64,000 nt of DNA, taken from Parapedobacter pyrenivorans. Its GTDB lineage: Bacteria > Bacteroidota > Bacteroidia > Sphingobacteriales > Sphingobacteriaceae. A program made the position numbers and the translations under genes. Location of the stretch: positions 2,406,718 through 2,470,717 of the forward strand of contig NZ_BMER01000001.1 in assembly GCF_014636865.1 (NCBI RefSeq). Direction: 5' to 3'. Below, one piece after another: positions 16,262 through 48,721 of the stretch; positions within the stretch are counted from its first letter, which is position 1; the number at the start of each line of letters is the position of its first letter. Under the pieces are notes generated by a model that saw nothing but the letters and a program-made list of their open reading frames with translations, did no database searches and had not been told where the DNA came from.

Positions 16262-16304
16262 GGGATTATTAAGATCGTAGTAATTTTTAATTATAGCTCA
16301 ATTG

Positions 16305-23376: not shown

Positions 23377-23388
23377 ATCGAGGAAACC

Positions 23389-25059: not shown

Positions 25060-25070
25060 ATGGAAACGAG

Positions 25071-26393
25071 GTGAAATTGAAAAAGAAATGTAACAACAAA
25101 CAAGCAGCTTTTTATAAAAGCTGCTTGTTGTGTTTTGGATACAGCTTAAGGGGACTTCTCCTTGCATTTGTCCTTCTGCCAGCAGTTTCCGTTGCCTACG
25201 GGCAGTCTTTTCGTGCCGGAGCAGCGATAAGGGTCATTACCCCGGATCCCCTTTTGCCTGTTTCCGGAGGTGTAGGCTCCCCCCGACCAGCCCATATACA
25301 AAAAGGAGACTTGTTTGTACGTGCATTGGTACTTGAGTCCAGCGGAACACGAATTGCTTTTGTCAGTATCGACAACTTGGGTTGGCCTGCTGTATTGGGT
25401 GACCGCGCGCGCGCAATGATTACCGGTATTCCTCCGGAGAACATCCTCATTGGGGCAACCCATACACACAGCGCTCCTGATGCTTATGGGTTCCCTGATG
25501 AGCATGGGGTACATCATGCCGATTTAGCGTACCTCGATTTTTGTGTCCGGCAGATGGCAGATGCGGTCAATGAAGCGGTAAGAAAACTGGAGCCGGCCAC
25601 GTTGAAAGTTGCTATGGGAGCCGCGAATGGACGCATCGCCTTCAATTACTATGCGGAGGAGCTGTACGATCCGCGTTGCAGCGTTATGCAGGCTGTTGCC
25701 ATGAACGGTAACGTCATCGCCACCTTGGTCAACTATGCCGTGCATCCAGAGACGATTGGCTCCAAACGAGGCGTGCTAAGCCCAGATCTTTGCGGACCGT
25801 TATATGAACGCATTGAAGACCGTGTAGGCGGTGTGGCCCTATTTATGAATGGGGCGTTGGGTGGCATGGTTACGGCAGACAACCGTCAGGCTAAGTCGGA
25901 AGAGACCTCAGAACTTTGGGCAGAATGTGTCCGGATCGGTACATTGCTTGCTGATGAAGCCATCAGATTGATACACGACGGGCAGGTGGTGACAGATCCC
26001 GAGCTAAGGTGCCTATCGAAGCAAGTCACTTTCCCGGTTGAAACCGCTGTGATGCAATATATTTTGAACCAATCACCCCTCAGCTACCCTTCACCGGCAC
26101 CAAATCAAATCACGACACGTATCAATGCCGTGAAGGTTGGACCCGCGACAATATTGACTATTCCCGGGGAAGCATTACCCAATATCGGATATTACCTGAA
26201 ACGAAAAATGAAGTCGGATTATCCCTTCCTTTTTGGGCTCACCAATGATGCATTCGGTTATATGCTGACAAAAGTTGACTTCGATAGTTTCCAACGATAT
26301 GCTTACATCACACGTACCAGTCTCGGGGAAATGACCGGGGAAATTTATATCGATGAGGCACTGGCCTTGGTAGCAGCGCTTTATCACGAATGA
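25071..26393 (+). CDS. Neutral/alkaline ceramidase-fold secreted hydrolase, copy 1
   Basis: About 440 residues from the GTG at 25071; an ATG at 25026 inside susD and a TTG near 25128 are alternatives, so the start is uncertain. The signal peptide is GLLLAFVLLPAVSVAYGQ. The protein belongs to the ceramidase_alk N-terminal-domain family, starting RAGAAIRVITPD. Zinc-ligand motifs are HTHSAPD (His131, His133) and VHPETIG (His225). Where ceramidases carry the serine nucleophile in GDVSPN, this protein reads GGMVTADN, so true ceramidase activity is doubtful. Two paralogues lie at 29556 and 48722. It is probably a periplasmic zinc hydrolase of unknown substrate. Confidence 0.83.
   Translation: MKLKKKCNNKQAAFYKSCLLCFGYSLRGLLLAFVLLPAVSVAYGQSFRAGAAIRVITPDPLLPVSGGVGSPRPAHIQKGDLFVRALVLESSGTRIAFVSIDNLGWPAVLGDRARAMITGIPPENILIGATHTHSAPDAYGFPDEHGVHHADLAYLDFCVRQMADAVNEAVRKLEPATLKVAMGAANGRIAFNYYAEELYDPRCSVMQAVAMNGNVIATLVNYAVHPETIGSKRGVLSPDLCGPLYERIEDRVGGVALFMNGALGGMVTADNRQAKSEETSELWAECVRIGTLLADEAIRLIHDGQVVTDPELRCLSKQVTFPVETAVMQYILNQSPLSYPSPAPNQITTRINAVKVGPATILTIPGEALPNIGYYLKRKMKSDYPFLFGLTNDAFGYMLTKVDFDSFQRYAYITRTSLGEMTGEIYIDEALALVAALYHE
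25099..25129 (+). terminator. Perfect 14-bp hairpin downstream of susD
   Basis: AACAAGCAGCTTTT (25099-25112) is an exact inverted copy of AAAAGCTGCTTGTT (25116-25129), with a 3-nt TAT loop and a T-rich GTGTTTT tail. It has the form of an intrinsic terminator 40 bp after the susD stop. It falls within the predicted first codons of the ceramidase-fold gene, so either that gene starts later or its translation and transcription are affected by the hairpin. Confidence 0.7.
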
Positions 26394-28191: not shown

Positions 28192-29559
28192 ATGGATAAA
28201 GAAACATGGAGCCGCAGACGGTTTATCGGACAGGCCGGGATTGGTGTTGCCACTGCGATGACAGCAGGTGCACTGGAGTCGTTGGCGGGAGTAACGTTAA
28301 CGTACCCGAATGATGGTAAACTAGCTTTATTGGGCGGCAAAGCCATTCGCGAAGGCAAATCTTGGCCGGCTTGGCCGCATGTGGATGATAACGTCATTAG
28401 CAAGATCGTTGAAACAACGAAAAGCGGCAAATGGAGCCGGATACAATCGGCCCAAGGTACGGTAGCTACCTTTGAAAAAGCGTTTTCGGGGCTTATCGGA
28501 TCCGACTTCTGTGTGGCCACGGGATCGGGTACACAAGCCCTCAGCACATGTGTGGAAGCATTGAATATTGGCCCCGGTGATGAGGTGATTACCTCACCAT
28601 ATACCGATTTCGGTACGATATCAGCGATACTGACCAGCCGGGCGCTCCCCGTTTTGGTCGATTTGGATTCGGAATCGTTCCAGCTCGATCCTGATGAAGT
28701 GGAAAAACACATTACCCCGAATACCAAGGCGATCATGCCGGTACACATCATGGGATTACCGGCAAATATGGAGCGGATCATGGCGATTGCGAAGAAGCAT
28801 GGACTATTGGTCATCGAAGATGCATGCCAAGCACCGTTTTCGAGATACCAAGGTAAACCGGTTGGGGTAATCGGTGATCTAGGTTGCTTCAGCTTCCAGG
28901 CGAGTAAAGCTATTGCCTGTGGCGAAGGTGGAGCAGTGGTGGGCAACAACCAAGCGATGATGGAGGAGTGTTTCACCGTACAAAATCGTGGAGCCTCTCG
29001 GGCCGGGAAAAACGAAAGGATTGGGCCAAAATACCGCATGAATGAGTTTGAGGGGGCGATCTTGATGGGACAATTGGACGAAGCGAAGAGCCGTTTCGAG
29101 ACTCGTGACGCAAACGCCAAATACCTTAGCGAAAAGCTAATGGCTATTCCCGGCCTAACACCTCAGAAGCAATATGAGGGCACGGAAAGTGGCTCGTACT
29201 ACAACTATGCCATGAAATATGATAGCGAGGAGTTTGGCGGTGTGGATCGCGCACAGTTTTTGAAAGCTATACAAGCCGAAGGGGTTCCCTTCACCTCATA
29301 CATCCGCGAAGGCTTACATCGCGCACCCTGGGTCGATACGATTCTGAACCAACAGGTCTATAAGCGATTCTATACCGAGCAGCGACTGCGCAGCTATCGC
29401 GAATCAATGAACCTGCCGAAATGCGATGAAATAACGGATAGAACCTTGGTGGCATTTTGGGGTTCGGCCGTGCTTTTGGGAGGCAGGGAGGACATGGACG
29501 ATATCGTGAATGCGGTTACCAAAGTTTACGAAAACAGAAGCTCATTGAAAAGTGTATGA
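28192..29559 (+). CDS. DegT/DnrJ/EryC1/StrS aminotransferase with twin-arginine signal
   Basis: A 455-residue PLP-dependent sugar aminotransferase-fold protein (aspartate aminotransferase fold type I). PLP residues are visible: Asp210 (VIEDACQAPFS) and Schiff-base Lys239 (SFQASKAIACGEGGAVV). Family members normally aminate nucleotide-linked keto sugars in the cytoplasm. Unusually, the N-terminus is WSRRRFIGQAGIGVATAMTAGAL, a good twin-arginine signal about 30 residues long, followed by the normal start of the domain (LALLGGKAIREGKSWPAWP). A folded PLP enzyme could be exported by Tat. Its stop overlaps the next ATG by 4 bp. Activity may be transamination or another PLP reaction on a periplasmic sugar. 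Confidence 0.88.
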   Translation: MDKETWSRRRFIGQAGIGVATAMTAGALESLAGVTLTYPNDGKLALLGGKAIREGKSWPAWPHVDDNVISKIVETTKSGKWSRIQSAQGTVATFEKAFSGLIGSDFCVATGSGTQALSTCVEALNIGPGDEVITSPYTDFGTISAILTSRALPVLVDLDSESFQLDPDEVEKHITPNTKAIMPVHIMGLPANMERIMAIAKKHGLLVIEDACQAPFSRYQGKPVGVIGDLGCFSFQASKAIACGEGGAVVGNNQAMMEECFTVQNRGASRAGKNERIGPKYRMNEFEGAILMGQLDEAKSRFETRDANAKYLSEKLMAIPGLTPQKQYEGTESGSYYNYAMKYDSEEFGGVDRAQFLKAIQAEGVPFTSYIREGLHRAPWVDTILNQQVYKRFYTEQRLRSYRESMNLPKCDEITDRTLVAFWGSAVLLGGREDMDDIVNAVTKVYENRSSLKSV

Positions 29560-30929
29560 GAAAATACAACCATAAGTGCATCGTTATTTCGGGATTACTC
29601 GTTCTGATGGTTGCTTTCGGCCAGCCGTTGAGTGCGCAGGAAGACCCCGGGTCTGTAAACATCCACGTTTTTGATGTAGATGCCACGCCACCGGTAGGCA
29701 GTTACCTGACCTATGACCGCATGACACATACCTGGGATATGGGGCTTCGTGCCAAGGGGATTGTTATCTGTGGATCCGGGGACCCGATTGTGCTATGCTC
29801 GGTCGACTGGATTGGTATCGCAAACGAAGGACAGGATGAATTCAAACGTGTTTTGGCAGAAGCTGCGGGCACCGTGCCTGATCGGGTGGCTGTACATACG
29901 GTACACCAACACGATGCGCCAACCTGTGATTTTGGAGCCGAGGCGCTGTTGTTGAGTAAAGGAATGGACCCCATTAATTTTGATGGATCCTTCGCTCGAG
30001 CGTTATTGGTAGATCTGGATAGTGCGGTCCGGCACGCGATGACGCAGCCCAAGCGTGTAACGCATATCGGCCTAGGAACATCACAGGTAGAGAAAGTGGC
30101 TTCTAATCGCCGGATATTAGACCGGGATGGCAAGGCCACGATCGGCCGCACTTCTGCTACCCGCGATCCAAAGATCAGGGCGTACCCCGAGGGATTGATC
30201 GATCCCGATGTATCGCTGATCAGTTTCTGGGAGGATGATAAACCTGTTGCTGTCCTGAGTTATTATGCCGTTCATCCACAAAGTTATTACCGGACGGGCA
30301 ATGCGAATCCGGATTTCCCGGGAATCGCTAGGTTCTTGCGCCAAATGAAGGTGCCTGAAGCGCTTCACATCCATTTCAATGGCGCGGGTGGCGATATTAC
30401 CGCGGGGAAGTACAACGATGGGTCGCCTGAAAAGAGGTGGGTGCTTGCCAGCCGCCTTGCTGCGGGAATGGAAGGAGCTTGGGAAAACACGTCGAAGTAT
30501 CCGCTGGCTCCCAGTGATATTGACTGGGCGACCGAGCCCCTTCACCTGCCCATTTCGCAAGATGCAATCCAGTTGGAACAGGAATTGGCCGATCACAATC
30601 CGATTTATTTGGCCAATAATGTCTACAAATTGGTCTTGCATAAACGGCAATCCAAGGGAAAGTTCATCGCCTTGTCGTGTTTGAAACTTGGGCGTGCACG
30701 CATCCTGCATTTGCCTGGTGAACCTTTAATTGCATTTCAACTTGCGGCAAAAAAGATGCGAAAGGATTTGTTTGTTGCCGTAGCGGGCTATGGCGACTAC
30801 GCGCCAGGATACATTTGTCCGGCAGCAGCGTACGAAGAGGGCGGCTACGAAGCCGGCCCGGCCTCCGGGGTCACCGCCGAAGCAGAAGGAATAGTGCTTG
30901 CGGCCATGAAAAAGCTGCTTGCGGATTAA
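29556..30929 (+). CDS. Ceramidase-fold secreted hydrolase, copy 2
   Basis: A 457-residue protein starting at an ATG that overlaps the aminotransferase stop (ATGA), implying translational coupling. Signal peptide: VISGLLVLMVAFGQPLSAQ. Motifs parallel the other ceramidase-fold proteins: VHTVHQHDAP (His114, His117, His119) for zinc and YYAVHPQSYY (His240). The ceramidase serine loop is replaced by GAGGDITAG. It ends with a segment (PGYICPAAAYEEGGYEAG) typical of the ceramidase_alk C-terminal metal region. A zinc hydrolase of unknown substrate is the safe call. Confidence 0.82.
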   Translation: MRKYNHKCIVISGLLVLMVAFGQPLSAQEDPGSVNIHVFDVDATPPVGSYLTYDRMTHTWDMGLRAKGIVICGSGDPIVLCSVDWIGIANEGQDEFKRVLAEAAGTVPDRVAVHTVHQHDAPTCDFGAEALLLSKGMDPINFDGSFARALLVDLDSAVRHAMTQPKRVTHIGLGTSQVEKVASNRRILDRDGKATIGRTSATRDPKIRAYPEGLIDPDVSLISFWEDDKPVAVLSYYAVHPQSYYRTGNANPDFPGIARFLRQMKVPEALHIHFNGAGGDITAGKYNDGSPEKRWVLASRLAAGMEGAWENTSKYPLAPSDIDWATEPLHLPISQDAIQLEQELADHNPIYLANNVYKLVLHKRQSKGKFIALSCLKLGRARILHLPGEPLIAFQLAAKKMRKDLFVAVAGYGDYAPGYICPAAAYEEGGYEAGPASGVTAEAEGIVLAAMKKLLAD

Positions 30930-30961
30930 TTCACCTAACACTAAAGATACACGAGAAGCTC

Positions 30962-32707
30962 ATGAACAACCAATCAAGAAGAGATTTTATCAAGCGAAGT
31001 GCGTTAGGCGGTATGACGCTTGCACTAGCGGGTACGTTACCATCGTTTTCATGGGGCGCTGATGAGCAGCCGCTTATATTTTTTGATGGATTTACGAATA
31101 TCGGTCCGAAACGAGGTAAACATCCGGCAGAGCGTTGGAGCCTGAAACACCTGGTCGATGAGATGGAGCATTGTTCGATATCCGGAGCATTGGTGGCTTC
31201 GGTTCTTTCTGTGACCTATGACCCGATGTATTCCAACCTGGACTTAAGTAGCCGATTGAAGCCGTATCCCCATCTTTTTGCGATATGGAATTTGATGCCC
31301 GCCAATACGGATGAGTTTCCTGCTCCCAAAGAATTGGGTGCATTGATGCAAGAACATGACGTGCGCGCGGTGACTGTACATCCGACAGGCAATAATTGGG
31401 ACTGGAAAACCCCAGAGGCTATAGCGCTTTTTGGCTGGCTGATGGAAAATCGCATTTTGACGATTATCCGACCCGAGGAATTTGGCGGATTGGGTGGCGT
31501 TAAAGAGCTGCTGAATACGTATAAAGACCTCCCTGTACTGCTTATAGGCGTGTATTGGTCCTTCCAACGGACGATTCTTCCGATGTTGTCAGCGTTTAAG
31601 AATCTTCACATCAGCTTTGAAAATTTTCAGATTAATGAAGGGTTGGAATCGTTGTATCATGACGGATATATCGATCAGCTTGTTTTTGTATCCAATGCTC
31701 CAACGATGTCTGCAGGAGCACATCGAACCTATGTGGACTATGCTGACATACCCCGAGAAGCCCGTGAAAAGGTTGCCGGCGGTAACCTGAGTAGGCTATT
31801 GCGCGGCCTGCGTCCTCCGGCTGCTCGGGAAAATAGCCAGGAAGATATGCTGATGCGCGCCATACGGCATGGAAAGCCTGTACCCGCACCCATCATCGAT
31901 ATGCATATGCACATCCTGCATGAGGGCCTAAATGGGACCGGTTGGCATTACCGAATGTACCATGGGGGGCCTAGCGGTGTTTTTAAATTGACAAAACGGT
32001 TGGGATATGTGGGCGGAGGGATCATGAGTTGGAATGGTGTAGTGAGTGTTGATTCGGCAAATGGCAATGTAACGGCAACCGAGGCCTTGGATGCGGCGCC
32101 TGAAGGATATTGGGGGTTGGCTAACTTCGATCCAGCGCATTATTCCCAAGCGGAATTGAAGAAGATGATTCCGGAAGTGTATAAAGATAAACGGTTCATT
32201 GGCATGAAGCCTTACCTTCACTATGGTATCCCATACAATGACCCATCCTATGATGTCTGGTGGAAATACGGAAATGAACATCACTTATATGGCTTGCTGC
32301 ACAGCACACGTCCGGATTTGCAGGAAATAGAGACACTCGCGCCGAAGTACCCGAATGTTCGCTGGGTGATCGCACATGCGGGAAGCAACTTCAAAATGGC
32401 CGATATGGCTATTGCGGCGATGAAAAAGTATCCCAACATTTATGCGGAGATTACCTTAACGCCGGTACAGTTGGGCATCGTCGAATACCTTGTGGAAGGT
32501 GCTGGCGAAGACCGCATCATGTATGGGTCCGACCTGCCCATGCGCGACCCGCGGCAACAGCTCGGATGGGTGGTGTTTTCAAGCCTGCCATTAGCAGTAA
32601 AAAGAAAGGTACTGGGTGAAAATGTGCGCCATGTCATCCAGCCGAATCTGGATAGCATGCCGGTGTATAATATTCCCGAAATCTTCAGAAAGTACCGGAA
32701 AACATGA
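30962..32707 (+). CDS. Tandem-barrel amidohydrolase with Tat signal
   Basis: A 581-residue protein from the ATG at 30962. The N-terminus SRRDFIKRSALGGMTLALAG is a twin-arginine signal. Residues about 310-580 form an amidohydrolase-2 (PF04909) domain with the metal motif MHMH (His315, His317), His472 (IAHAGSN) and Asp524 (YGSDLPM). Residues about 40-290 look like a second, degenerate copy: it begins FFDGFTNIGP without HxH and ends SNAPTMSAGAHRTYVDY where the active copy has the GSD motif. Members are metal-dependent hydrolases or decarboxylases, often lactonases. It stops with a 4-bp overlap into the next gene. Confidence 0.83.
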   Translation: MNNQSRRDFIKRSALGGMTLALAGTLPSFSWGADEQPLIFFDGFTNIGPKRGKHPAERWSLKHLVDEMEHCSISGALVASVLSVTYDPMYSNLDLSSRLKPYPHLFAIWNLMPANTDEFPAPKELGALMQEHDVRAVTVHPTGNNWDWKTPEAIALFGWLMENRILTIIRPEEFGGLGGVKELLNTYKDLPVLLIGVYWSFQRTILPMLSAFKNLHISFENFQINEGLESLYHDGYIDQLVFVSNAPTMSAGAHRTYVDYADIPREAREKVAGGNLSRLLRGLRPPAARENSQEDMLMRAIRHGKPVPAPIIDMHMHILHEGLNGTGWHYRMYHGGPSGVFKLTKRLGYVGGGIMSWNGVVSVDSANGNVTATEALDAAPEGYWGLANFDPAHYSQAELKKMIPEVYKDKRFIGMKPYLHYGIPYNDPSYDVWWKYGNEHHLYGLLHSTRPDLQEIETLAPKYPNVRWVIAHAGSNFKMADMAIAAMKKYPNIYAEITLTPVQLGIVEYLVEGAGEDRIMYGSDLPMRDPRQQLGWVVFSSLPLAVKRKVLGENVRHVIQPNLDSMPVYNIPEIFRKYRKT

Positions 32708-35700
32708 TCGTGTTCAATAGGCTCTTTGCGATTAGGATTTCTTTGGCAGTAGTTGCGTTGGGCATGTCCTGCCTGCCGTCGTCAGCCCAGCAGCATAGCG
32801 GCTTTATGCTACCGTCGTTCAAGCAAGAACCGCCGCGTGTTGCACAGTATCCCTTGAAAACAGATCGGTTGTTTTATAGCGATAGCGATATCGAGATAGC
32901 CCGCAGGAACATTACAGCCAATACCGGAGCAAAGCGCATTGCCAATGATATTATCAACGCCGCCGACTATTGGGTGGGTTGGGAGGACCAAGCCATTCTC
33001 GACCTGATGGCTGATGCCCGGGTTCCCCGAGCATTTGACCTGAATGCAACCGGGTGTCCTATCCACGGAGCGGAAGTGTTCAACAAAGGAGGTGCCTATC
33101 CATGGATTGTTGACCCAAAGCATCCTTTTCAGGTGAAGTGCCCGATCGGTAGCGAAGTGTTCCCTGCCAATGATTACGCCACATACTACAAAAGTGGATC
33201 TATCGAGAAATCAACCAGCGACACCTCATACGTAGATGAAGGCTGGGGTTGGGTGGCGCCCGACGGCGAACGATACTGGTTTGTCGCTTATGCGAATCAC
33301 TGGGTGTGGCATAGGCATGTCATGCCCGGAATCCTGAATCTCGCTCGGGCATACCAGCTGACGGGAAATACTGCCTACGCGCATAAGGCAGCTTTGATGC
33401 TGCATCGGGTGGCCGAAGTATATCCTTCTATGAATTACGAAGAGCAATCAAGATATGGTCTGATGATGAAGGCCCGTAACTCGGTATATCGCGGAAAGAT
33501 TGTGAACGCGATTTGGGAAACTTTTTTGGTCCTCACCGGTGCAGAAGCCTATGATGCGGTTTGGGGTAGTATCGATGATAATCTCGCCCTACAGCAACAC
33601 CTGGGTAAGACGGGCCAAGAAATCAGGGCATACATCGAAGCCAACTATTTGGAGGAAGCATTGCGTGCATTTGAGGCTAATAAGGTCCTTGGCAATTTTG
33701 GTATGCACCAGAGCGCGGTTCTGGCTGTCGGTCTTGCCCGGCAGCATGCAGACCTGGGTAAATATATACATTTACTGCTGGAAGACCCCGGTGAGACCCG
33801 GAGTAAAATGGGGATAAATTACGCGCTCTACAATCAGGTGTTTAGGGACGGTTTTCCGTTGGAATCTCCCCAATATAACTCGCTTTGGATCCGTTACCTT
33901 GCTGTGATGGCCAATTTTCTCCGTAAGCAAGGAGTGGATTTATACAAGAGTCCGAAATTAAAACACATACTGGATGCGCCAATTCAATCGCTGGCCATCG
34001 GTCGGTATACACCGGCTCTTGGAGATGGTAGCGATGTGCTGGGAGATATAACCGGTCAGAATTCGGAAACCTACCAGGCTGCATATTCGGCTTGGGGCGA
34101 CTCTACTTATATCGCTTGGCTTAACCAATCGGAAGACGAATATTTTACGACCTATGAGTCGCTGTTTCGGACGCCGGTGGGCAGGGAAAACACCACCTCC
34201 GAGGGCCGACTACTGCCGCCAGCTGGTTCCCGTCTTTTTGCAGGGTATGGGCTGGGCATATTGAATGACCGCGCCGACGAAACAGCGTTAGCGATTAAAT
34301 ATGGAATGCATTATGCTCACTACCATTGGGATTTTTTGAATTTTGAGTTGTTTGCCAATGGGCAGAAAATGATGCCCGACCTGGGTTACCCGGATGCCAT
34401 GAATAATTATGTGCGGGGAATTTATACCTGGTCGAAGAACACGGTGTCTCACAACACCGTGGTGGTTGACAAAATCCGGCAGAACAGTAATCGGCCGGGT
34501 GTACTTCATCACTTTTCTGAAGGTGATTTTGTGCAAAGCATCGATGTGGAATCAAAAGCCTACCAGCACGTCAACCAATACCGCCGGAACCTGGTCTTGG
34601 TGAGCGGGAATGAGAATGAACGATACGTGGTCGATTTTTTCCACCTGCAAGGGGGGGGACAGCACGACTATTCCCTGCATGGTCCTCCAGGCGAGGCAAG
34701 CTTTTCCAGTGGTAGCTGGAGTGCCATTCAGCCCGGCACGTTTGCCGGTCCCGATGTAGAACTCGGGCAAATCTATGACAATGACCTGCTCGAAAAAAGC
34801 GGGGATTCCATCGGGTATAGTGGCTATGGAGGGTCGGGCTTCCAACATCTTTTCAATGTACGGCGCTTGGATCAAGGCAAGCCCATCCTAGCCTTCAAGC
34901 ATATCAATGATTCCAGCGCGCAGCTGCGGATTCACGTGATGCCTTCCGAAGGGCAAACCGTATACACGGCCGACGCGTATGATAAACCAAGGGCTAAGAA
35001 CCACCTGTTGAAATACATGCTGGCAACGCGGAAATCCGTTGATTCGAAACCACTTAGCAGTACATTCGTGGGGGTTTTTGAGACCTTCAACGCTGATCCT
35101 TTTATATTGTCTGTTAAGCAGGTCGATCCAGACAGTGGGCATGGGACTGCGATTGCTGTATCCCGCAGCGGAGCGCTTGACCTGATCATCCGCGATACAT
35201 TGAATTCGACCAAGGTTTTTCAGCACTATGGTATAAAGACCGACGCCAATACGGCGGTAATTACGTTGGATAGCAATCATATCCCGCAGCGGGTTTATTT
35301 CACGGACGGTACCTTTCTGGATGTGAATGGCAGGGTGTTCGAAAGCCATCCCATCCAAGGAACTGTGCTGCAGGTCAATCTCGAGCATAATGAAATGACC
35401 GTGGCGCTGGATTCAATTGAGTCTGGTGCTGCCAGAAATTCCCTGTCCGGCGTTTTCCATTTAACCAATGCTTACCGTACGACGGTGCATCCAGCTACAG
35501 CGGTTTTCGAGTCCGAAAGCATCATGCGTCTAAAGCTGAAAGATGACCTATTGGTGGGGTATTTCGGTGTAGCGGGCCTAGACGGGAAAGACATCACCAC
35601 AGACAGCGAGCTGAACTTCCACCAGCACTATGCTGGCACGGCAATGTTGACCGAGACGCATGAGTACATCGCGCAAGTAGTGAAAGCGGATAGAAAAAAG

Positions 35701-36849
35701 GTCTTTACCGACCAACCGGATCATGCAAAATTAACAAAAGGTGATAAGGTTTGGTTGACAAATGCCTGGAAAGGTGATCGGGTAACATTCAAGACAGTAT
35801 TTTCATGGCGTAAAGAAAACGACGAGCGTCTGTCCAAACTGCTCGCATATACGGATGAGAAAGGGCGCGAGCGAAAGGTGCAGACGCTCGCAGATTGGCA
35901 AAAAAAACGGGACCAAGTACTGGCTGGTATGCAGTTGGTGATGGGTGATTTGCCTGATACCTCCGGACTAGGTGTGCCGCAGGTGCAGGTTATTTCGCAG
36001 GAAAAGCGCGCGGGTTATACCCGGTTCAATATTCGATACCTAGCAGCACCGGATGAGTGGGTGTCTGCTTTTCTGTACGTCCCCAAATCGTCAGGGAAAA
36101 AGAAACAGCACCCAGCAATGCTGGTATTGCATAGCACCGGCGGTGCCGGCAAGGGAATTGTGGATGGGGAAGGCAAATTGCCGAATAGGGCATATGCCAA
36201 AGAACTGGCCGAAAAGGGTTACGTCGTTATCGCTCCTGACTATCCCAGTTTTGGAGATCTGAAAGATTACGATTTTTCAGCAGATCGGTATGCATCGGGC
36301 ACGATGAAAGCCATATTCAATCATATCCGTGCGATAGACCTCTTAGTGGCAAGGACGGATGTTGATGCCAACCGGATTGGCGTAATAGGCCATTCATTAG
36401 GAGGGCACAACGCAATCTTCGTTGGCGGTTTCGATGAACGGCTAAAAGTGGTTGTTTCCAGTTGCGGTTGGACGCTTTTTGACCATTACGATATCGGTGA
36501 GGCGGGGACCAAAGCCTACGGGGGTAAGCTGGGGCCATGGGCGCAGGATCGGTACATGCCATTGCTCCGCCAACGATACGGTCTCGAGCCCGCCCGCGTG
36601 CCGTTTGATTTCGACGAAGCGATCGCCGCCATAGCCCCGCGAGCGTTCTATTCCAATTCTCCGGTTGGCGATCAAAATTTCGCGATTGAAGGAGTGACGG
36701 CGGGCATTGCATACGTTGGGGAGGTCTACCAGTTCCTCGGAGCTGGGGCGTATCTTCACGTGGCTTATCCCGAAGCCGGGCATGATTTTCCTTATGAAAC
36801 ACGAATGGAAGCTTATGCATTCATCGATCGTATATTGAATACTAACTAG
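32704..36849 (+). CDS. Heparinase II/III-like lyase fused to alpha/beta-hydrolase esterase
   Basis: A 1381-residue secreted fusion, much longer than the 600-800 residues of single heparinase II/III-type lyases. After the signal peptide come an alginate-lyase-like (alpha/alpha) toroid (about 60-450) and a heparinase II/III beta-sandwich with the hallmark KYGMHYAHYHWDFLNFELF from Lys532. A linker of about 80 residues after 970 leads to a C-terminal dienelactone-hydrolase/acetyl-esterase-like domain (about 1040-1381) with nucleophile Ser1231 in GHSLGG and His1360 in AGHDFP. The frame is uninterrupted, so this is a true fusion. It would cleave uronic-acid glycan and remove an ester in one polypeptide. 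The start overlaps the preceding stop (ATGA). Confidence 0.85.
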   Translation: MIVFNRLFAIRISLAVVALGMSCLPSSAQQHSGFMLPSFKQEPPRVAQYPLKTDRLFYSDSDIEIARRNITANTGAKRIANDIINAADYWVGWEDQAILDLMADARVPRAFDLNATGCPIHGAEVFNKGGAYPWIVDPKHPFQVKCPIGSEVFPANDYATYYKSGSIEKSTSDTSYVDEGWGWVAPDGERYWFVAYANHWVWHRHVMPGILNLARAYQLTGNTAYAHKAALMLHRVAEVYPSMNYEEQSRYGLMMKARNSVYRGKIVNAIWETFLVLTGAEAYDAVWGSIDDNLALQQHLGKTGQEIRAYIEANYLEEALRAFEANKVLGNFGMHQSAVLAVGLARQHADLGKYIHLLLEDPGETRSKMGINYALYNQVFRDGFPLESPQYNSLWIRYLAVMANFLRKQGVDLYKSPKLKHILDAPIQSLAIGRYTPALGDGSDVLGDITGQNSETYQAAYSAWGDSTYIAWLNQSEDEYFTTYESLFRTPVGRENTTSEGRLLPPAGSRLFAGYGLGILNDRADETALAIKYGMHYAHYHWDFLNFELFANGQKMMPDLGYPDAMNNYVRGIYTWSKNTVSHNTVVVDKIRQNSNRPGVLHHFSEGDFVQSIDVESKAYQHVNQYRRNLVLVSGNENERYVVDFFHLQGGGQHDYSLHGPPGEASFSSGSWSAIQPGTFAGPDVELGQIYDNDLLEKSGDSIGYSGYGGSGFQHLFNVRRLDQGKPILAFKHINDSSAQLRIHVMPSEGQTVYTADAYDKPRAKNHLLKYMLATRKSVDSKPLSSTFVGVFETFNADPFILSVKQVDPDSGHGTAIAVSRSGALDLIIRDTLNSTKVFQHYGIKTDANTAVITLDSNHIPQRVYFTDGTFLDVNGRVFESHPIQGTVLQVNLEHNEMTVALDSIESGAARNSLSGVFHLTNAYRTTVHPATAVFESESIMRLKLKDDLLVGYFGVAGLDGKDITTDSELNFHQHYAGTAMLTETHEYIAQVVKADRKKVFTDQPDHAKLTKGDKVWLTNAWKGDRVTFKTVFSWRKENDERLSKLLAYTDEKGRERKVQTLADWQKKRDQVLAGMQLVMGDLPDTSGLGVPQVQVISQEKRAGYTRFNIRYLAAPDEWVSAFLYVPKSSGKKKQHPAMLVLHSTGGAGKGIVDGEGKLPNRAYAKELAEKGYVVIAPDYPSFGDLKDYDFSADRYASGTMKAIFNHIRAIDLLVARTDVDANRIGVIGHSLGGHNAIFVGGFDERLKVVVSSCGWTLFDHYDIGEAGTKAYGGKLGPWAQDRYMPLLRQRYGLEPARVPFDFDEAIAAIAPRAFYSNSPVGDQNFAIEGVTAGIAYVGEVYQFLGAGAYLHVAYPEAGHDFPYETRMEAYAFIDRILNTN

Positions 36850-36865: not shown

Positions 36866-38791
36866 ATGGTAAAAAAGAATTGGATACTTTATGGCGTAAC
36901 GCTGATGTCGCTGGTCTCGATGAGTTTGCGGAGCTCCGAAAAACCACAACGCGCGCATGCAGATGACCGGTTCGTCGACCACGGCGTTGCATCACCGGTT
37001 AGCACGAACCGGGGCGTGGTAGCTACCGTGGATGGACAGGGGCGAAACATTGTTATGGCATGGCTTTTTGATGTGCGGGGAGGATACTCCCTGTTGGTCA
37101 TTGATGAGGAAACAGGCGAAAGTGAGGAGTTTCCCATGCCTTTCGACACTGCAGGGGACTCCCCTTTTTCATCATTGTTTTCCTCGCAGGGCAAATTGTA
37201 CACGTTGTTTAATGGCAATTTTGTGGAGTTTGACCCCGAAACGCGGGCATATACCTTCCATAAAAAGACAGCTCCCCAAATGGCGATGGGGATGACGGAA
37301 GACGACCAAGGACGGATTTGGGCAGTGACTTACCCGAATAGCGGCCTGGTCTGTTATGACCCCGAAATCGACTCATTGACTGATTACGGGTACGTTAACA
37401 AAGAGAATTGGGCACAATACCAGCGCTATATGGCAGCAGACGATACTGGCTGGATATATTTTGCCCTTGGTAATACCAACAGCCAGCTCCTCGCGTTTAA
37501 CCCCGACTCACGAGAGGTGCGGCCGTTGCTGCCAACCACCGAGCGAAAACGTGGAATGGCTTATGTTTATCGCAATCGGAACGGAAAAGTTTTTGGACAA
37601 GCCCTGCAAGATGATGCTGCGCCGTGGTACGAGTTATATCAGGGGAACATCGTGCCGATCGGGGTGGGTCATAGGCCGGAAGCAAAAAATATCATTACTG
37701 GATCGCAGGCGCTTAGGCATCTCGTGTTTCCAGATGGCCGACGGATAGTTAGCCTAGATTTAATCGATAGGCAGTTGACGACGGAAGATGCCGCAGGTAA
37801 CGCACACAAAACTGTTAATTTTGACTACTCGACGGAAGGATCTTGGGTGATGGGGGTGGCCACATCACCGGATCGGCAGTCGATCATCGGCGGAAGCTCC
37901 TTTCCCATGCGGTTGTTTAACCATGCTGTTGCCAACGAAAGCTGGAGCCGCGAAAGCGCCTTCGGCCAGTTCAACGCCATAGCAGTTACAGACCGGTATG
38001 CTTTTTTCGGTTCTTATCCGGGTGGACACCTCATGATCTGGGACCCGCAAAAGCCTTTTACGGGTACTGTGACTGGCCGCGAAGGGAATAACCCTGAGGT
38101 CGCTTTTACCTGCAAACCGATAATCTACCGGCCTCATCGTGTATTGGCCCATCCAAATGACAGGACCATCATGATGAGCGGTACGCCCGATTACGGCTAT
38201 ACCGGTGGTGGGCTGCTGTTTTATGACATGAAGTCTCGCGAACATGTCTTGCTAACGGATAGTCAAGTAGTAGAGAATCAATCGACCATGAGCCTCACGA
38301 CGTTGAAAAATGGGAAGGTGCTGGGGGGTACAACGATTGCTCCGGGAACGGGCGGCGAACGAAAAGCTACTTTGGCCGAGTTATACCAGGTGGATGTTAA
38401 TACGAAGCAGGTGGAATGGCGGAAGCCTGTTATTCCGGGTGTACAGACTTACTCGGACCTGGCGACACGGGCGGACGGGAAGGTATATGGGATTGCGGAT
38501 TATAAACTGTTTTTTGTATTTGATCCTGAAAAACAGGTCGTAATTTACCAGAAGGATGTTTCTATCGATCTGGGACGTACCGTTGGGGAACAATCTCCTC
38601 GTATATTTGTGAAAGGTGCCGGAGAAGATCTCTACCTGCTTTTTCATGACGCCATTACCAAGGTAAATCATGATTCTTATCAGTTAACCTTGTTGGCACA
38701 TACCCCCGAGCCAGTCAGAGCCGGCGGAGACTACCTAAATAACCGTATTTATTACATCAGCGGTTCTCATCTTTATAGTTATGCCTTGTAA
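36866..38791 (+). CDS. Secreted beta-propeller protein of unknown function
   Basis: A 641-residue protein with an N-terminal hydrophobic signal (WILYGVTLMSLVSMSL). The rest consists of repeated blades with motifs such as GKLYTLFNGNFVEFDPETR, DQGRIWAVTYPNSGLVCYDPE and DGKVYGIADYKLFFVFDPEK, typical of NHL/SMP-30-like or quinoprotein-like propellers. I recognise no catalytic signature. It is the last gene of the aminotransferase-lyase operon, 16 bp after the fusion gene. It may bind the glycan or act as a lyase; propeller folds occur among uronate lyases, but that is a guess. Confidence 0.78.
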   Translation: MVKKNWILYGVTLMSLVSMSLRSSEKPQRAHADDRFVDHGVASPVSTNRGVVATVDGQGRNIVMAWLFDVRGGYSLLVIDEETGESEEFPMPFDTAGDSPFSSLFSSQGKLYTLFNGNFVEFDPETRAYTFHKKTAPQMAMGMTEDDQGRIWAVTYPNSGLVCYDPEIDSLTDYGYVNKENWAQYQRYMAADDTGWIYFALGNTNSQLLAFNPDSREVRPLLPTTERKRGMAYVYRNRNGKVFGQALQDDAAPWYELYQGNIVPIGVGHRPEAKNIITGSQALRHLVFPDGRRIVSLDLIDRQLTTEDAAGNAHKTVNFDYSTEGSWVMGVATSPDRQSIIGGSSFPMRLFNHAVANESWSRESAFGQFNAIAVTDRYAFFGSYPGGHLMIWDPQKPFTGTVTGREGNNPEVAFTCKPIIYRPHRVLAHPNDRTIMMSGTPDYGYTGGGLLFYDMKSREHVLLTDSQVVENQSTMSLTTLKNGKVLGGTTIAPGTGGERKATLAELYQVDVNTKQVEWRKPVIPGVQTYSDLATRADGKVYGIADYKLFFVFDPEKQVVIYQKDVSIDLGRTVGEQSPRIFVKGAGEDLYLLFHDAITKVNHDSYQLTLLAHTPEPVRAGGDYLNNRIYYISGSHLYSYAL

Positions 38792-39166: not shown

Positions 39167-42100
39167 ATGAAGAGAAATACCTACTTAAAGCGCATTGGCA
39201 TACCTTACTGTAGATGCATTCGCAAACCGTTCGGGAATATCCCGGGCGCACTTAGTCGAACCGTTCTTGTCCTTTTATTACTATCCAGCACGTGGACGAC
39301 TACATGGAGTATCACCTCCCTTTCCGTGGCGACGGTGACGATGCAGGAACGCACGATTAAAGGCCGCGTGAGTGATGCGAACGAAGCCGGGATCCCGGGC
39401 GTGAGTATCAAAATTAAAGGAACCTCCATGGGCACCGTTACTGACCTAAACGGTCTTTTCTCCATTGCTGTCCCCGACGAGAATGCCATACTGGAATTCT
39501 CTTCTGTCGGGTATATGATGCAGGAGGTGCCCGTCAAAGGGCGGGCAGAAATCCGTATCACGCTGGAAATGGCAGCTGGTGATATGGAAGAAGTGGTCAT
39601 CACCGCTTTTGGTACCCAGAAGAAGGAAAGTGTGTCTGCCGCCATTACCACGGTAAAGCCTTCTGACCTGAAGATCCCGTCGAGTAATTTGACAACGGCA
39701 TTGGCTGGCCGGGTGGCCGGTGTGATTGCCTACCAGCGATCGGGTGAACCGGGGTTGGACAATGCGGAATTTTATATCCGTGGCGTGACGTCGTTCAGTA
39801 CGGCCGGTAAACGGGATCCGCTGATCCTGATTGACCGGGTGGAAATGACTGCGAATGACCTGGCGCGGATGAATGTGGACGACATTGCCTCGTTCTCCGT
39901 GATGAAAGATGCCAGTGCCGCAGCGCTATATGGCGCGCGTGGCGCAAATGGCGTGATCCTCGTGACCACCAAGGAGGGAACCTTGGACCGACTGTCCATC
40001 AGTATCCGGGGCGAGCAGTCCAATTCGTACAATACGAAGATGCTTGACCTGACGGACCCAATTACCTATATGCGGCTTCACAATGAAGCGGTACGAACGC
40101 GGGACCCGATGGTGCAGCTGCCCTATTCATCCGATAAGATACGGGGTACAGAACTGGGGCTGGATCCGATCCGTTATCCGGCGGTGAACTGGTACGATTA
40201 CCTGATCGAAGACTATGCCACTAATCGGCGTATCAACCTGAACCTGACCGGTGGCGGGCAGACGGTGCAGTATTATCTCGCAGCAAACTATCAGAACGAC
40301 CAGGGAATTCTCAAAGAAAGCAAGGAAAACCAGCTTGATAACAACATCGATATCGACCGGCTTCAGGTCCGCTCGAACGTAACGATTAAATTTGCGCCCA
40401 CTACAACGGGTGTGGTGCGTGCCTACGGATCGTTTGACGATCGGACGGGCCCTTATATTCCGAGTATGCGGGATGAATATGATAAACTCGTGACCGGTGG
40501 AGCCGCGGTATTCCGTCAGGCACGGAATGCTTCGCAAGTTAGTTTCCTCCCTTTTTACCCGGCCGATGAAGCCAACCAATTCACCAAGCATATCCTCTTC
40601 GGCAGGGATACGGAAATGTCTATGACGAATCCGTGGGCCAACCTAGCCAGCTCGTTCCAGGAATCAAGGGAGTCCATGATGCAGGTGCAGTTGGAAATGG
40701 AGCATAGGTTCATCGGGAAACTTGAGGGGTTTACAGCTTGGGGGTTATACAACGCGCAGCGGAAAGGCTATTACGACCATACGCGTTCTTATGCACCTTT
40801 CTATTACAGTATGGCGAATACCATAGACGGGTCGTACCGGCTGTTGCCGCTGAACCCGGACACGGGAACGGAATATTTGGACTATGTAGGCGGCGGCAGG
40901 AGGGTAGAAGCTACCCAGTATGGCGAACTGCGGTTAACGTACAACAAGGTTTTGGGCGGCAAGCACGATCTCAGTGGTGCCCTAGTGGGCACGATCCGGA
41001 ATGCGACGGGTACGATTAACGTTGACACAGAAGTGGCCGATCTGCTCCAGATAGCCTTGCCTAGAAGGAATATTTCGACAGCAGGCCGATTTGCTTATGG
41101 GTACGATTCCCGTTATTACGCGGAGTTCGCCTATGGGTTGAATGGCACGGAGCGGTTTGCCGAGCATAGTCGGTGGGGTTTCTTCCCCACGGTGGGCGCA
41201 AGCTGGGTAGTGAGCAACGAAAAGTTCATGTCTGGTCTGAATGATGCCATCAGTACCCTGAAGTTGCGGGGTACGTATGGTGAAGTCGGAAACGATGCAA
41301 TCGGTTCAGATGTCGATCGTTTCTTCTACCTGTCGCAGATCGATATGAATGCCGGAGCATCTTACCCGTTCGGTGTACCGGGTACCATTAACTATTCCCG
41401 TTCAGGCATCACCATCAACCGGTATGCCAATGATCTGATCACTTGGGAAATTGCCCGGAAAGCGAATGTGGGTGTTGAAGTAGGGCTGTTCAATGATTTC
41501 ACGCTCATTGCCGATTTCTTTCACGAAAGGCGCCGAAATATTCTACAGACCCGGCAGGATATCCCGACGACCATGGGAATCCGTGGTACCCCACAGGCCA
41601 ACGTAGGTATTTCTGAGGGGCGCGGAATCGATGCGGAATTGAAATACAATAAAACGATGCCCAGCGGCCTTTGGTTATCGATAAACGGTAATTTTACCTA
41701 TATGAGCGCTCGTTTCAAACAGTATGAGGAGCCTGACTACAGCGACGTTCCCTGGCGTACGCGTGTAGGTACGAAGCTCAGCCAGCCGATGGGTCTTATT
41801 GCCGAACGGTTGTTCGTCGATGAAGAAGAGGTGAACAATTCGCCGGTGCAGGAGTTCGGGGAATACATGGCAGGTGATATTAAATATAAGGATATCAATA
41901 ACGACGGGAGGATCAACGCGGACGACGTGGTGCCGATCGGTTATCCTACCGAGCCCGAAATTATCTATGGAACGGCGTTTTCAATAGGATACAAGGCATT
42001 TGATGTCAGCTTTTTCATCCAGGGTTCCGGCAGATCCTCCTTCTTTATCAGTCCGGAAGCCCTTACGCCATTCACCGGTCGCGGGCAGAAGGCCCTGGTT

Positions 42101-42436
42101 CAGTTGATCGCTGACGATCACTGGTCTGAAACCAACCGGGATATCTATGCGTTCTGGCCGCGGTTATCGGAATATGCTATCGGCAACAACAATCAACAAA
42201 GCACCCACTGGCTACGTGACGGTACGTTTATCCGACTGAAGCAGGCCGAAGTTGGTTATACCCTGCCTGAGAAATTGACCAAAAGAGCCCGCGTTAACAT
42301 GCTGCGGGTGTACCTAAGCGGAACCAACCTGCTTTACTGGTCCACGTTTAAGTTGTGGGATCCGGAAATGGCCGGACTGGGGTTGGGTTATCCGGTTCAG
42401 CGTGTTTTCAACCTGGGAGTGAATATTAACTTTTAA
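39167..42436 (+). CDS. SusC/RagA-family TonB-dependent outer-membrane transporter 2
   Basis: A 1089-residue SusC-type receptor. The signal sequence is unusually long: about 30 basic and cysteine-containing residues precede the hydrophobic core TVLVLLLLSSTW. Then come the regulatory-like domain (IKGRVSDANEAGIPGVSIKI), the SusC motif MEEVVITAFGTQKKESVSAAI, a plug (ILIDRVEMTANDLARM; SVMKDASAAALYGARGANG) and the barrel, ending GVNINF with terminal Phe. It forms a transporter with the SusD protein 35 bp downstream. The gap in front contains the blocks shared with the operon at 28192. Substrate unknown; the neighbours suggest uronate-rich glycan. Confidence 0.96.
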   Translation: MKRNTYLKRIGIPYCRCIRKPFGNIPGALSRTVLVLLLLSSTWTTTWSITSLSVATVTMQERTIKGRVSDANEAGIPGVSIKIKGTSMGTVTDLNGLFSIAVPDENAILEFSSVGYMMQEVPVKGRAEIRITLEMAAGDMEEVVITAFGTQKKESVSAAITTVKPSDLKIPSSNLTTALAGRVAGVIAYQRSGEPGLDNAEFYIRGVTSFSTAGKRDPLILIDRVEMTANDLARMNVDDIASFSVMKDASAAALYGARGANGVILVTTKEGTLDRLSISIRGEQSNSYNTKMLDLTDPITYMRLHNEAVRTRDPMVQLPYSSDKIRGTELGLDPIRYPAVNWYDYLIEDYATNRRINLNLTGGGQTVQYYLAANYQNDQGILKESKENQLDNNIDIDRLQVRSNVTIKFAPTTTGVVRAYGSFDDRTGPYIPSMRDEYDKLVTGGAAVFRQARNASQVSFLPFYPADEANQFTKHILFGRDTEMSMTNPWANLASSFQESRESMMQVQLEMEHRFIGKLEGFTAWGLYNAQRKGYYDHTRSYAPFYYSMANTIDGSYRLLPLNPDTGTEYLDYVGGGRRVEATQYGELRLTYNKVLGGKHDLSGALVGTIRNATGTINVDTEVADLLQIALPRRNISTAGRFAYGYDSRYYAEFAYGLNGTERFAEHSRWGFFPTVGASWVVSNEKFMSGLNDAISTLKLRGTYGEVGNDAIGSDVDRFFYLSQIDMNAGASYPFGVPGTINYSRSGITINRYANDLITWEIARKANVGVEVGLFNDFTLIADFFHERRRNILQTRQDIPTTMGIRGTPQANVGISEGRGIDAELKYNKTMPSGLWLSINGNFTYMSARFKQYEEPDYSDVPWRTRVGTKLSQPMGLIAERLFVDEEEVNNSPVQEFGEYMAGDIKYKDINNDGRINADDVVPIGYPTEPEIIYGTAFSIGYKAFDVSFFIQGSGRSSFFISPEALTPFTGRGQKALVQLIADDHWSETNRDIYAFWPRLSEYAIGNNNQQSTHWLRDGTFIRLKQAEVGYTLPEKLTKRARVNMLRVYLSGTNLLYWSTFKLWDPEMAGLGLGYPVQRVFNLGVNINF

Positions 42437-42471
42437 CTAACTGCTGAAAGTCGGCAATAAACGATATACGA

Positions 42472-44430
42472 ATGAAGAGTTTAATGAAAATAATGGCGGC
42501 CTGTTTCCTGTTGGGGATAACGAGTTGCAACTATTTGGACGTGGTGCCGAATGACACGGCCACGCTCGATCATGCCTTTTCGAATCGGTCGGTGATGGAA
42601 AAGTTCATGAGAACGTGTTATTCGCATTTGCCGGATCCGACCAATCCTTGGCATTATCCAGCTTACTTCACCAGCCGGGATGAGTTCGATTGGCGGGGAG
42701 AAACCCGGGCAGCAGTGATGCCTGCAGCGATGATTTCCAGGGGCCTTCAGAATACCAATACGCCGTACCAGGATTACTGGTCGGGCACAAATGGCGCGAA
42801 AGCGATGTACACGGCTATTCGCGACTGCAATATTTTTCTGGAGAGTGCACATATACCCCGGGATATTGACGAAACCGAACGGCTGAGGTGGATTTCCGAG
42901 GTTACATTCCTGAAAGCGTATTACCATTTCTTCCTCGTGCAGCTGTACGGTCCGATCGTACTGGTGAGGGAGAACCTACCGGTGTCTGCTAGTCCCGAAG
43001 AAGCAAAAGTATACCGGGAGCCCGTGGATGAGTGTATCGAATACATTGTGGAGCTGCTGGATGAAGCGGCGGCAGGTTTACCGGACGCCCTGCCGGACCC
43101 TTCGACCGAACGTGGGCGGATCACTAAAATCACAACGTTGGGTATCAAAGCCAAGGCACTGGCATGGGCAGCAAGTCCCTTGTTTAACGGAAACCCTGAC
43201 TATGCCGGTTGGGTGGATAACCGCGGAAAGCAACTGATACCGAATACTTATGACGCCACGAAATGGGAGCGGGCGGCTATTGCCATTAGAGAGGCGATAG
43301 ACCTGGCCGAAGCCACCGGCCACCGGCTGTACGAATTCAATAAGTTCGCCGGTGGTGCCAGTACTTTTGCCATGAACGACACCCTCGAAACCCTGATGAC
43401 GGTAAGGAAGGCAATAACCGAGCAGTATGATCAGAATCCGGGCGTCCTTTGGGCCACCCAGGAACAGTTTGCCCACGGAAAAGGATCGCCCGGTCTGTCC
43501 GTTCTTGGAAACATGCTGGCCAGCCTGTTTCCCGTACTTTACAGCACCGATCAGCCCCTGCTGCTCAACTACATGTCTGCTTCCTGGCACATGGCTGAGT
43601 TATATTATACGAATAATGGGGTGCCGATCAACGAAGATAAGAACTACGATTACAGTAACCGGTTTAGCCTGCGCCGCGCCACACCAAGTGATAACCACGA
43701 ATCGTACATTGCGACTAATGAGGTAACTTCATACCTGCATTTTTTTCGTGAACCGCGCTTTTATGCCAGTTTAGGTATTGACCGTGGCTATTTTGAACTG
43801 GTTTCCACCACCACCAACGGCGGTGCCTCCTTTGGTCCCGTTATCAAAAGCCGGTCGGATGAAGTGGGTCCAGCGAACGGACATGCTGCTTATACTCCCA
43901 AGAAAATCATCCCGTTTGAGTCATCAGGTAGCCGGGGCATTGCCGGCCAGGTTTATACACAGTACCTGTATCAGTTTCCGTTGCTGCGTCTTGCCGACCT
44001 CTACTTGCTCTATGCCGAAGCGCTAAACGAGGTGAAAGCGCAGCCCGACCAGGATGTATACCTCTGGATTGATAAAATCCGGGAGCAAACTGGGTTGGAT
44101 GGCGTGGTGGAATCGTGGCAGCGCGCAGCCTATAACCCGGGTGCGCCCAGCAATAAGAACGATATGCGCCGGATCATCCAGCGAGAACGGTTGATTGAAC
44201 TCTCGTTTGAAGGCCAACGCTTCTGGGATGTACGCCGTTGGAAAATAGCGCAGGAGTATTGGACCCTGCCGCCCACTTCGTGGAAGACGGGCACGAGGGT
44301 AGCAGAAGAGTTTTATGTACCAACTCCTTATGCAGAACCCCGTCAGGTGACGTTCAGGGATTACCTGTATCCGTTGAGGCAGTACGACCTGCGGGTTAAT
44401 ACTAATCTGGTGCAAACCTATGGCTGGTAA
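42472..44430 (+). CDS. SusD/RagB-family nutrient-binding lipoprotein 2
   Basis: A 652-residue classical RagB/SusD lipoprotein; lipobox LLGITSC (Cys19) and the mature start NYLDVVPND. The TPR-like helical region includes LRWISEVTFLKAYYHFFLVQLYGPIVL, the signature of the N-terminal SusD domain, and the C-terminal RagB domain has LYLLYAEALNEVK and RLIELSFEGQRFWDVRRWK. It pairs with SusC 2. It differs in subfamily from the SusD-like_2 protein at 23389, so the two transport systems are not simple duplicates. Confidence 0.96.
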   Translation: MKSLMKIMAACFLLGITSCNYLDVVPNDTATLDHAFSNRSVMEKFMRTCYSHLPDPTNPWHYPAYFTSRDEFDWRGETRAAVMPAAMISRGLQNTNTPYQDYWSGTNGAKAMYTAIRDCNIFLESAHIPRDIDETERLRWISEVTFLKAYYHFFLVQLYGPIVLVRENLPVSASPEEAKVYREPVDECIEYIVELLDEAAAGLPDALPDPSTERGRITKITTLGIKAKALAWAASPLFNGNPDYAGWVDNRGKQLIPNTYDATKWERAAIAIREAIDLAEATGHRLYEFNKFAGGASTFAMNDTLETLMTVRKAITEQYDQNPGVLWATQEQFAHGKGSPGLSVLGNMLASLFPVLYSTDQPLLLNYMSASWHMAELYYTNNGVPINEDKNYDYSNRFSLRRATPSDNHESYIATNEVTSYLHFFREPRFYASLGIDRGYFELVSTTTNGGASFGPVIKSRSDEVGPANGHAAYTPKKIIPFESSGSRGIAGQVYTQYLYQFPLLRLADLYLLYAEALNEVKAQPDQDVYLWIDKIREQTGLDGVVESWQRAAYNPGAPSNKNDMRRIIQRERLIELSFEGQRFWDVRRWKIAQEYWTLPPTSWKTGTRVAEEFYVPTPYAEPRQVTFRDYLYPLRQYDLRVNTNLVQTYGW

Positions 44431-48626: not shown

Positions 48627-48644
48627 TCGATAAATATTTATTTT

Positions 48645-48678
48645 AGCGGTAATAATGCGTTATTGCTTAGAAGCCGCT
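48645..48678 (+). repeat. Nested inverted repeat in the gap before the third ceramidase-fold gene
   Basis: AGCGG (48645-48649) pairs with CCGCT (48674-48678), and inside it AATAA pairs with TTATT around TGCG. It lies in the 95-bp gap after the stop at 48626. There is no T-run, so it could be an operator or an RNA hairpin rather than a terminator. Confidence 0.35.
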
Positions 48679-48721
48679 CGGAGTTGAGGACTAACAATCG
48701 ATATAATTAATCACAGTAGAG

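Follow-up and report, generated by a model that had tools for sequence, protein, structure and literature searches.

The window analyzed here, a 64,000-nucleotide stretch of the Parapedobacter pyrenivorans genome (contig NZ_BMER01000001.1, forward-strand positions 2,406,718 to 2,470,717), contains a gene whose predicted product joins a heparinase II/III-type polysaccharide lyase to a CE15-like alpha/beta-hydrolase in a single chain (Table 1). The first-pass annotation, made from the sequence and its open reading frames (ORFs), had read this gene as one uninterrupted frame, and positions 32704-36849 of the forward strand indeed hold 1381 codons with zero internal stops. At its ATG, the gene overlaps the ORF of the amidohydrolase upstream by 4 bases, an arrangement consistent with translational coupling within an operon. 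A Pfam domain search, as that annotation had proposed, matched both Hepar_II_III_C and alpha/beta-hydrolase models on the one chain, and the alignments described below indicated that the candidate catalytic residues of each domain are kept. The chain begins with a signal-peptide-like stretch (signal peptides were judged by eye throughout), and the fused protein is probably exported and probably periplasmic.

Table 1. Coordinates in the window of the fused gene, its parts and candidate residues, and surrounding genes (residue numbers are those of the fused protein).
Feature	Position	Strand	Basis or remark
Fused gene lyase::alpha/beta-hydrolase, 1381 aa	32704..36849	+	Open frame; genome position G000:C1:2439421-2443563, inside long contig
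N-terminal signal-peptide-like stretch, 29 residues, to ...SSAQ	32704..32790	+	Judged by eye
Lyase part, residues 30-1037	32791..35814	+	Nearest unfused relatives end here (SWSRK + stop in P. tibetensis)
N331 (GNFGMHQ), candidate carboxylate-neutralizing residue	33694..33696	+	9/9 aligned lyases; putative role after heparinase II/III-type lyases
Y391, candidate catalytic acid	33874..33876	+	9/9 aligned lyases; putative role
Pfam Hepar_II_III_C, residues 507-660	34222..34683	+	E 3.8e-13, above curated cut-off
H539-Y-H541-W-D543 hallmark	34318..34332	+	9/9 aligned lyases; H539 aligns with first His (H413) of Alg17C HGH motif
H583-N584 of W..x..HNT motif common with PL17	34450..34455	+	9/9 aligned lyases; alignment to 4nei
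Junction, residues 1038-1040	35815..35823	+	Almost no linker, without signal-peptide-like stretch
CE15-like alpha/beta-hydrolase (esterase) domain, residues 1041-1381	35824..36846	+	Pfam; PDB profile matches 8q6s, 6gry and other CE15; 28 standalone homologs
S1231, nucleophile (GHSLGGH)	36394..36396	+	S and following Leu each 19/19 esterases; oxyanion Arg there in CE15 (PMC10807430)
D1323, triad acid	36670..36672	+	19/19; aligned to PvCE15 Asp353 via 8q6s, with a presumed one-residue numbering offset
H1360 of triad (HDFP)	36781..36783	+	19/19; alignment to 8q6s stops short of H1360
Amidohydrolase (PF04909), apparently coupled, upstream	30815..32707	+	80%-identical homolog directly before lyase in P. 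tibetensis
641-aa protein	36866..38791	+	No Pfam or NCBIfam match; adjoins or one gene from lyase in 7/8 other loci of the lyase alignment
Three different neutral-ceramidase-like proteins	25026-26393, 29457-30929, 48722-50083		First two below Pfam cut-off
750-aa protein	16302-18554		No Pfam or NCBIfam match
HGSNAT_cat protein (heparan-alpha-glucosaminide N-acetyltransferase type)	18814-19896		Directly before first SusC gene

By its Pfam matches and motifs, the chain from residue 1 to about residue 1037 is a heparinase II/III-type polysaccharide lyase. The lyase part scored 50 bits with PF07940 against a cut-off of 24, and at an expectation value (E) of 0.1 or below this model matched 9/9 lyases of an alignment made of the window sequence and eight others, with a best value of 2.5e-14. 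The hallmark that the first-pass annotation had placed near residues 532-546 was recovered as YAHYHWDF at 537-544 (H539, H541 and D543), and a SHNTVVVD motif follows at residues 582-589. N331, H335, Y391, D441, H539, H541, D543, Y562, W576, H583 and N584 are invariant in all nine lyases; Y569 is kept in four and is missing from the five more distant members. The lyase half keeps 133 of the 135 columns that are invariant in the other eight lyases. The earlier statement that lyases of this fold are about half as long as the fused chain proved inexact, as the lyase part spans about 1037 residues and translated unfused relatives measure 1007-1046 residues, about three-quarters of the fused length. 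A cysteine-containing stretch in the N-terminal region of the aligned lyases (window residues about 118-150) reads CPIHG ... CPIG in the window and CLKCG ... CPSC in the consensus of the distant relatives, and by eye it resembles a metal-binding knuckle.

In profile searches, the lyase part matched PL17 alginate lyases best (Alg17C 4nei, AlgL17 9irq, 7bjt and 8bdd; E 4e-14 to 4e-10), and the HxHxD and W..HNT motifs align with theirs. Counted along the profile alignment to 4nei, H413 of Alg17C falls on H539, and Y450, which we take to be the PL17 base, falls on Y569. However, most of these matches span just about 130-150 residues of the lyase part (about 450 for 8bdd), which is itself about 300 residues longer than the PL17 chains (707-751 residues). 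PL17 membership was left open in view of these partial-length matches and of the presence of Y569 in 4/9 lyases. The PL40 ulvan lyase Uly1040 (9vtk) matched about 260 residues following the hallmark (E 4.2e-10), a C-terminal stretch to which the alignment was limited. As reported (PMC12915356), Uly1040 uses Asn245, Trp246, Tyr305, Asp358, His485 and His487 in a His/Tyr mechanism. Candidates for the Asn, Tyr, Asp and HxH positions are present in 9/9 lyases as N331, Y391, D441 and H539/H541, an equivalence at the level of motifs only. In contrast to Uly1040, the residue after the Asn is F332 (Gln in relatives), neither Trp nor His, and a Pfam scan of 28 proteins of the window recognized no sulfatase. 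PL40 membership was likewise left open, on the limited C-terminal alignment and the F or Q after N331.

In the C-terminal part, alpha/beta-hydrolase Pfam models matched between residues 1122 and 1346 (Abhydrolase_6, E 4.4e-8; GCE_fung, E 7.6e-8; both above cut-off), and GCE_fung matched 19/19 members of an alignment comprising the window esterase half and 18 other esterases. The GHSLGG elbow with Ser1231 (motif at 1229-1234) and the His1360 (AGHDF at 1358-1362) called by the first-pass annotation were both confirmed, and the alignment added D1323, missing from that annotation, as the third triad member. At the sequence level, the candidate triad S1231, D1323 and H1360 is invariant in 19/19 esterases. 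The esterase half keeps 69 of the 72 columns that are invariant in the other 18 members; because 133/135 and 69/72 otherwise invariant columns are kept, both halves of the fusion look maintained and constrained.

The best solved profile matches of the esterase half were CE15 structures (8q6s, E 8e-15; 6gry, E 9.3e-15). The residues used by PvCE15 are Ser264, Arg265, Lys268, Asp353, Trp355 and His406 (PMC10807430). Like the CE15 enzymes (PvCE15 8q6s, 6gry and OtCE15A), the esterase half is an alpha/beta-hydrolase by profile, with S1231 and D1323 falling on Ser264 and Asp353. However, the oxyanion Arg265 is replaced by L1232, and the uronate-binding Lys268 and Trp355 are replaced by H1235 and N1325, each in 19/19 members, and CE15 membership was not adopted in view of these replacements. 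Judged by its oxyanion and uronate-binding residues, the putative esterase family is CE15-like but not CE15. CE15 enzymes cut uronate esters, not O-acyl groups; since the Arg, Lys and Trp are missing in all 19 members, O-deacylation is our preferred guess for the activity of the esterase half.

The two halves meet almost without a linker. The Parapedobacter tibetensis lyase terminates in ...VTIKTVFSWSRK followed by a stop, and the window protein continues as ...VTFKTVFSWRK-END-ERLSKLLAYTD..., leading directly into the mature region of the esterases. The lyases of loci L001, L002, L005 and L052 align up to residues 1035-1038 and then end. In the 19-member alignment, the standalone esterases start with about 20-55 extra hydrophobic-looking residues (the start codons being our own ORF calls), and these are missing at the junction. 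A single lost stop or frameshift is unlikely because it would leave a signal-peptide-like stretch and an intergenic gap in frame, neither of which was seen. Simple stop loss between neighbors was rejected, as the signal-peptide-like stretch is gone and the esterase lies directly after a lyase in 0/12 standalone loci. The join between lyase and esterase looks like a real fusion.

Searches for further fusions covered 201 genomes of the family, 9 of the genus, 395 of the phylum (searched twice), 400 of the order, 395 of the class and 28 + 2 of further genera; these samples overlap, and the large searches scored 2-5 candidates per genome, so that absence is soft. When species genomes were scanned for patterns of the complete protein, three loci came back (L001-L003), two of them lyase-only and one esterase-only. 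The lyases of P. tibetensis (L001, apparently also sampled as G087 and counted once; 1042 residues) and Membranihabitans maritimus (L002; 1046 residues) end at residue 1038, and the esterase-only locus, from Dysgonamonadaceae (L003), holds two tandem genes of 372 and 390 residues that begin at the junction. The sampled family, phylum and order genomes yielded 26 further esterase places at 54-61% identity with open frames of 344-410 residues; with the two genes of L003, 0/28 homologs of the esterase half in the sampled genomes were fused. Left out of this count were G398 and G115 (about 3e-21) and others at 25-35% identity, including one on contig C6 of the source genome (G000:C6). The standalone esterase is a tandem gene pair in six loci (L003, L007, L054, L056, L058 and L061). 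The three closest lyases (L001, L052 and L002) share 42-57% identity with the window lyase, the family search gave 11 more distant lyases (frames of 1013-1051 residues, 28-31% identity), and one more has 1038 residues; by frame length, none of the lyases found is joined to this type of esterase. The lyase::esterase fusion was seen in no other genome sampled, a soft absence given the few candidates scored per genome, and we found no publication on it in the open-licence PubMed Central literature.

The two partners do occur together elsewhere. By our own count, 16 of the 201 family genomes match either half; the lyase type is present in 14 of them, the esterase in 14, and the two together in 12. 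The search for the same fusion or for its halves as separate neighbors, also suggested by the first-pass annotation, gave no second copy of the fusion in the genomes sampled; lyase and esterase genes lie 18 kb apart in one cluster among homologs of window genes in two genomes (G042 and G123). The most telling case, a second and apparently independent hydrolase-lyase fusion, was found in genome G039 (L052:8428-12153), where an uninterrupted frame of 1241 residues carries an N-terminal GDSL/SGNH domain (Lipase_GDSL_2, E 2.8e-11) and a lyase 51% identical to the window lyase. This SGNH domain is unlike the window esterase half and is not detectably similar to the SGNH gene of the window itself. 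G039 also has a separate SGNH-like frame (254 residues, 38%), and the one other genome of its genus in the sample has no lyase at E <= 1e-20 and a separate frame of 259 residues that is 40% like the SGNH part. That one lyase family bears two different hydrolase domains, each at another end, suggests that linkage has been selected for. Taken together, co-occurrence, shared loci and the second hydrolase-lyase fusion support a functional coupling of the halves. The first-pass claim that deacylation and chain cleavage are coupled is supported to the extent that the partners occur together in other genomes; that the hydrolase is a deacylase, that both reactions act on one chain and that the substrate is an esterified uronic-acid glycan are predictions.

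The fused gene sits between two SusC/SusD pairs (Pfam; 19984-25059 and 39167-44430) in a locus of the polysaccharide-utilization type, which also holds two PhoPQ-related hydrolases, a DegT-type aminotransferase, a second esterase-type gene (AXE1) and three proteins with BNR repeats, of which one scored under the Pfam cut-off. To our knowledge, the gene set of this locus matches no described utilization locus. The order here is amidohydrolase, lyase::esterase and, after 16 bp, the 641-residue protein, which may be a propeller lyase or a binding protein. The order in P. tibetensis (L001 and L060) is amidohydrolase, lyase, a second lyase-like (heparinase II/III-like) gene of 762 residues and the 641-type protein; at E <= 0.001, the 762-residue gene has no counterpart in the source genome but the lyase part of the fusion itself. 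The 641-type protein does not lie by the lyase in L002, the exception among the aligned lyases, nor in the later-found L080. In L080 (genome G925), the enolase-superfamily homolog next to the lyase (L080:12892-14239) is itself spread over two ORFs and may be a broken gene or a misreading.

In a related genus, six loci (L043, L046, L054, L056, L058 and L061) place the esterase, often as a tandem pair, next to a ceramidase-like gene or with one gene in between, and an enolase-superfamily gene lies within about 7 kb of the esterase; the standalone esterase loci L047-L051 and L053 are without this full arrangement. The ceramidase-like genes near the standalone esterase in the six loci are homologs of the third ceramidase-like protein of the window. 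As the window homologs of the ceramidase-like and enolase-superfamily genes lie at 47211-50083, the fusion probably involved relocation within the locus, not just deletion between neighbors.

Distant relatives of both halves were also found on plasmids. Ten plasmid records had a lyase match, nine of them haloarchaeal, at 26-30% identity, and four of the ten were examined, namely those among the best 15 of 72 esterase-search records or top-ranked for the lyase. In L073, L075 and L076, a weak esterase relative (23-25%) is found no more than about 1.1 kb from the lyase, with one gene between the two in L076; in L074 the gene under the esterase match lies about 23 kb from the lyase. All four haloarchaeal plasmids carry lyase relatives of about 1240-1385 residues near alpha/beta-hydrolases. 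The three annotated haloarchaeal stretches also hold aminotransferases and Gfo/Idh oxidoreductases, and some hold amidohydrolases and PIG-L deacetylases. These plasmid clusters may be the archaeal, distantly related form of the catabolic cluster seen here.

Overall, we favor, with somewhat better than even confidence, a true fusion in which a lyase (residues 1-1037) is joined at its exact C-terminus to a mature CE15-like hydrolase (about residues 1041-1381), so that the hydrolase strips an ester and the lyase cuts the same uronate chain. In this putative mechanism, the hydrolase domain would remove an ester-linked substituent, most likely an O-acyl group, from an acidic oligo- or polysaccharide via Ser1231-His1360-Asp1323, and the lyase domain would then cut the same chain by beta-elimination at a position adjoining a uronic acid; the carboxylate would be neutralized around N331, and Y391 and H539 or Y569 would provide the acid/base chemistry. 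We infer both activities, their order and the substrate class from sequence. Several observations weigh against this coupled fusion. It was seen in a single genome, and a neutral or species-specific accident is possible. Ten of the 12 genomes with both partners belong to one genus and are not independent. Of the 11 genomes other than the source that have both genes, 8 carry them on separate contigs, and G039 carries them 1.38 Mb apart. Among the nine genomes of the genus, P. tibetensis is the sole further one with this lyase; it is without a close esterase homolog (E <= 1e-20) and has just a 29%-identical esterase-like stretch, in a frame of 782 residues that lies some 12 kb downstream of the lyase. 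The source genome contains another weakly esterase-like frame at a different place (28%, the G000:C6 frame mentioned above). Both AlphaFold models were too poor to use: that of the lyase, built from 3 sequences, had a mean predicted local distance difference test (pLDDT) score of 43.6 and, of the toroid plus beta-sandwich fold of the superfamily, showed just helices followed by strands along the chain, and that of residues 751-1381, built from 5 sequences, had a mean pLDDT of 50.8. The sequences used for both came from the window, L001, L002 and L003. A PDB fold search with the latter gave no match at E <= 0.001, an outcome that we treated as meaningless.

The first-pass annotation had named a sequencing error near 35650-35830 that joins two genes as the finding that would undo its proposal, and a merger of neighboring genes through faulty sequencing or assembly would fit the absence of the fusion from the other sampled genomes. 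However, we consider it very improbable: the intergenic stretch and the signal-peptide-like esterase start are both absent from the frame, the genome is assembled in 11 contigs and 99.99% complete with the gene inside a long contig, and no esterase follows directly behind a lyase in the 12 standalone esterase loci compared. A real fusion devoid of catalytic coupling, produced by chance rearrangement in the same type of locus and adding co-export only, is a possible but clearly less likely account. The singleton status of the fusion (0/28 homologous esterase frames fused), the unfused lyase of P. tibetensis with no close esterase homolog in that genome and the near absence of a linker all speak for it, and some multicatalytic enzymes reportedly show no intramolecular synergy (PMC8417218). 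Against it stand the invariant residues kept in both halves and the other genus that fuses a different hydrolase domain to the same lyase family. A further possibility is a variant of the coupled fusion that differs in the bond cut, and its odds overlap with those of the latter: the hydrolase would cleave uronate methyl or aryl esters as CE15 glucuronoyl esterases do, freeing the carboxylate that the lyase needs. CE15 structures as the top profile matches, GCE_fung hits in all 19 members and the agreeing position of the acid Asp in PvCE15 argue for uronate-ester cleavage. We nevertheless regard it as unlikely, since the Arg, Lys and Trp of PvCE15 are replaced in every member aligned.

Lyase-esterase fusions are already known as a kind. 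PL10-CE8 pectate lyase/methylesterase fusions (PMC8072126) and the CE15-GH8 multicatalytic enzyme BeCE15A-Rex8A (PMC8417218) likewise place a lyase or glycosidase and an esterase on one chain in a utilization locus, but their domains come from other families than the lyase and the esterase joined here; the combination described here differs from them in both partners. We speculate, with considerable doubt, that the hydrolase half belongs to a carbohydrate-esterase family not yet described (GHSLGGH ... DxNF ... HDFP), regularly paired with a large family of heparinase II/III-type lyases in a catabolic system for an acylated acidic glycan that has a distant haloarchaeal version, and that an esterase-type domain has been tied to the lyase twice, C-terminally in Parapedobacter and as an N-terminal SGNH domain in a second genus. 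If both activities are real, the natural substrate of the lyase family would bear an ester group that has to be removed at the cleavage site. The fusion, if true, would therefore narrow the substrate search for its locus, and it would indicate that esterases close to CE15 form a family whose active-site signature differs.

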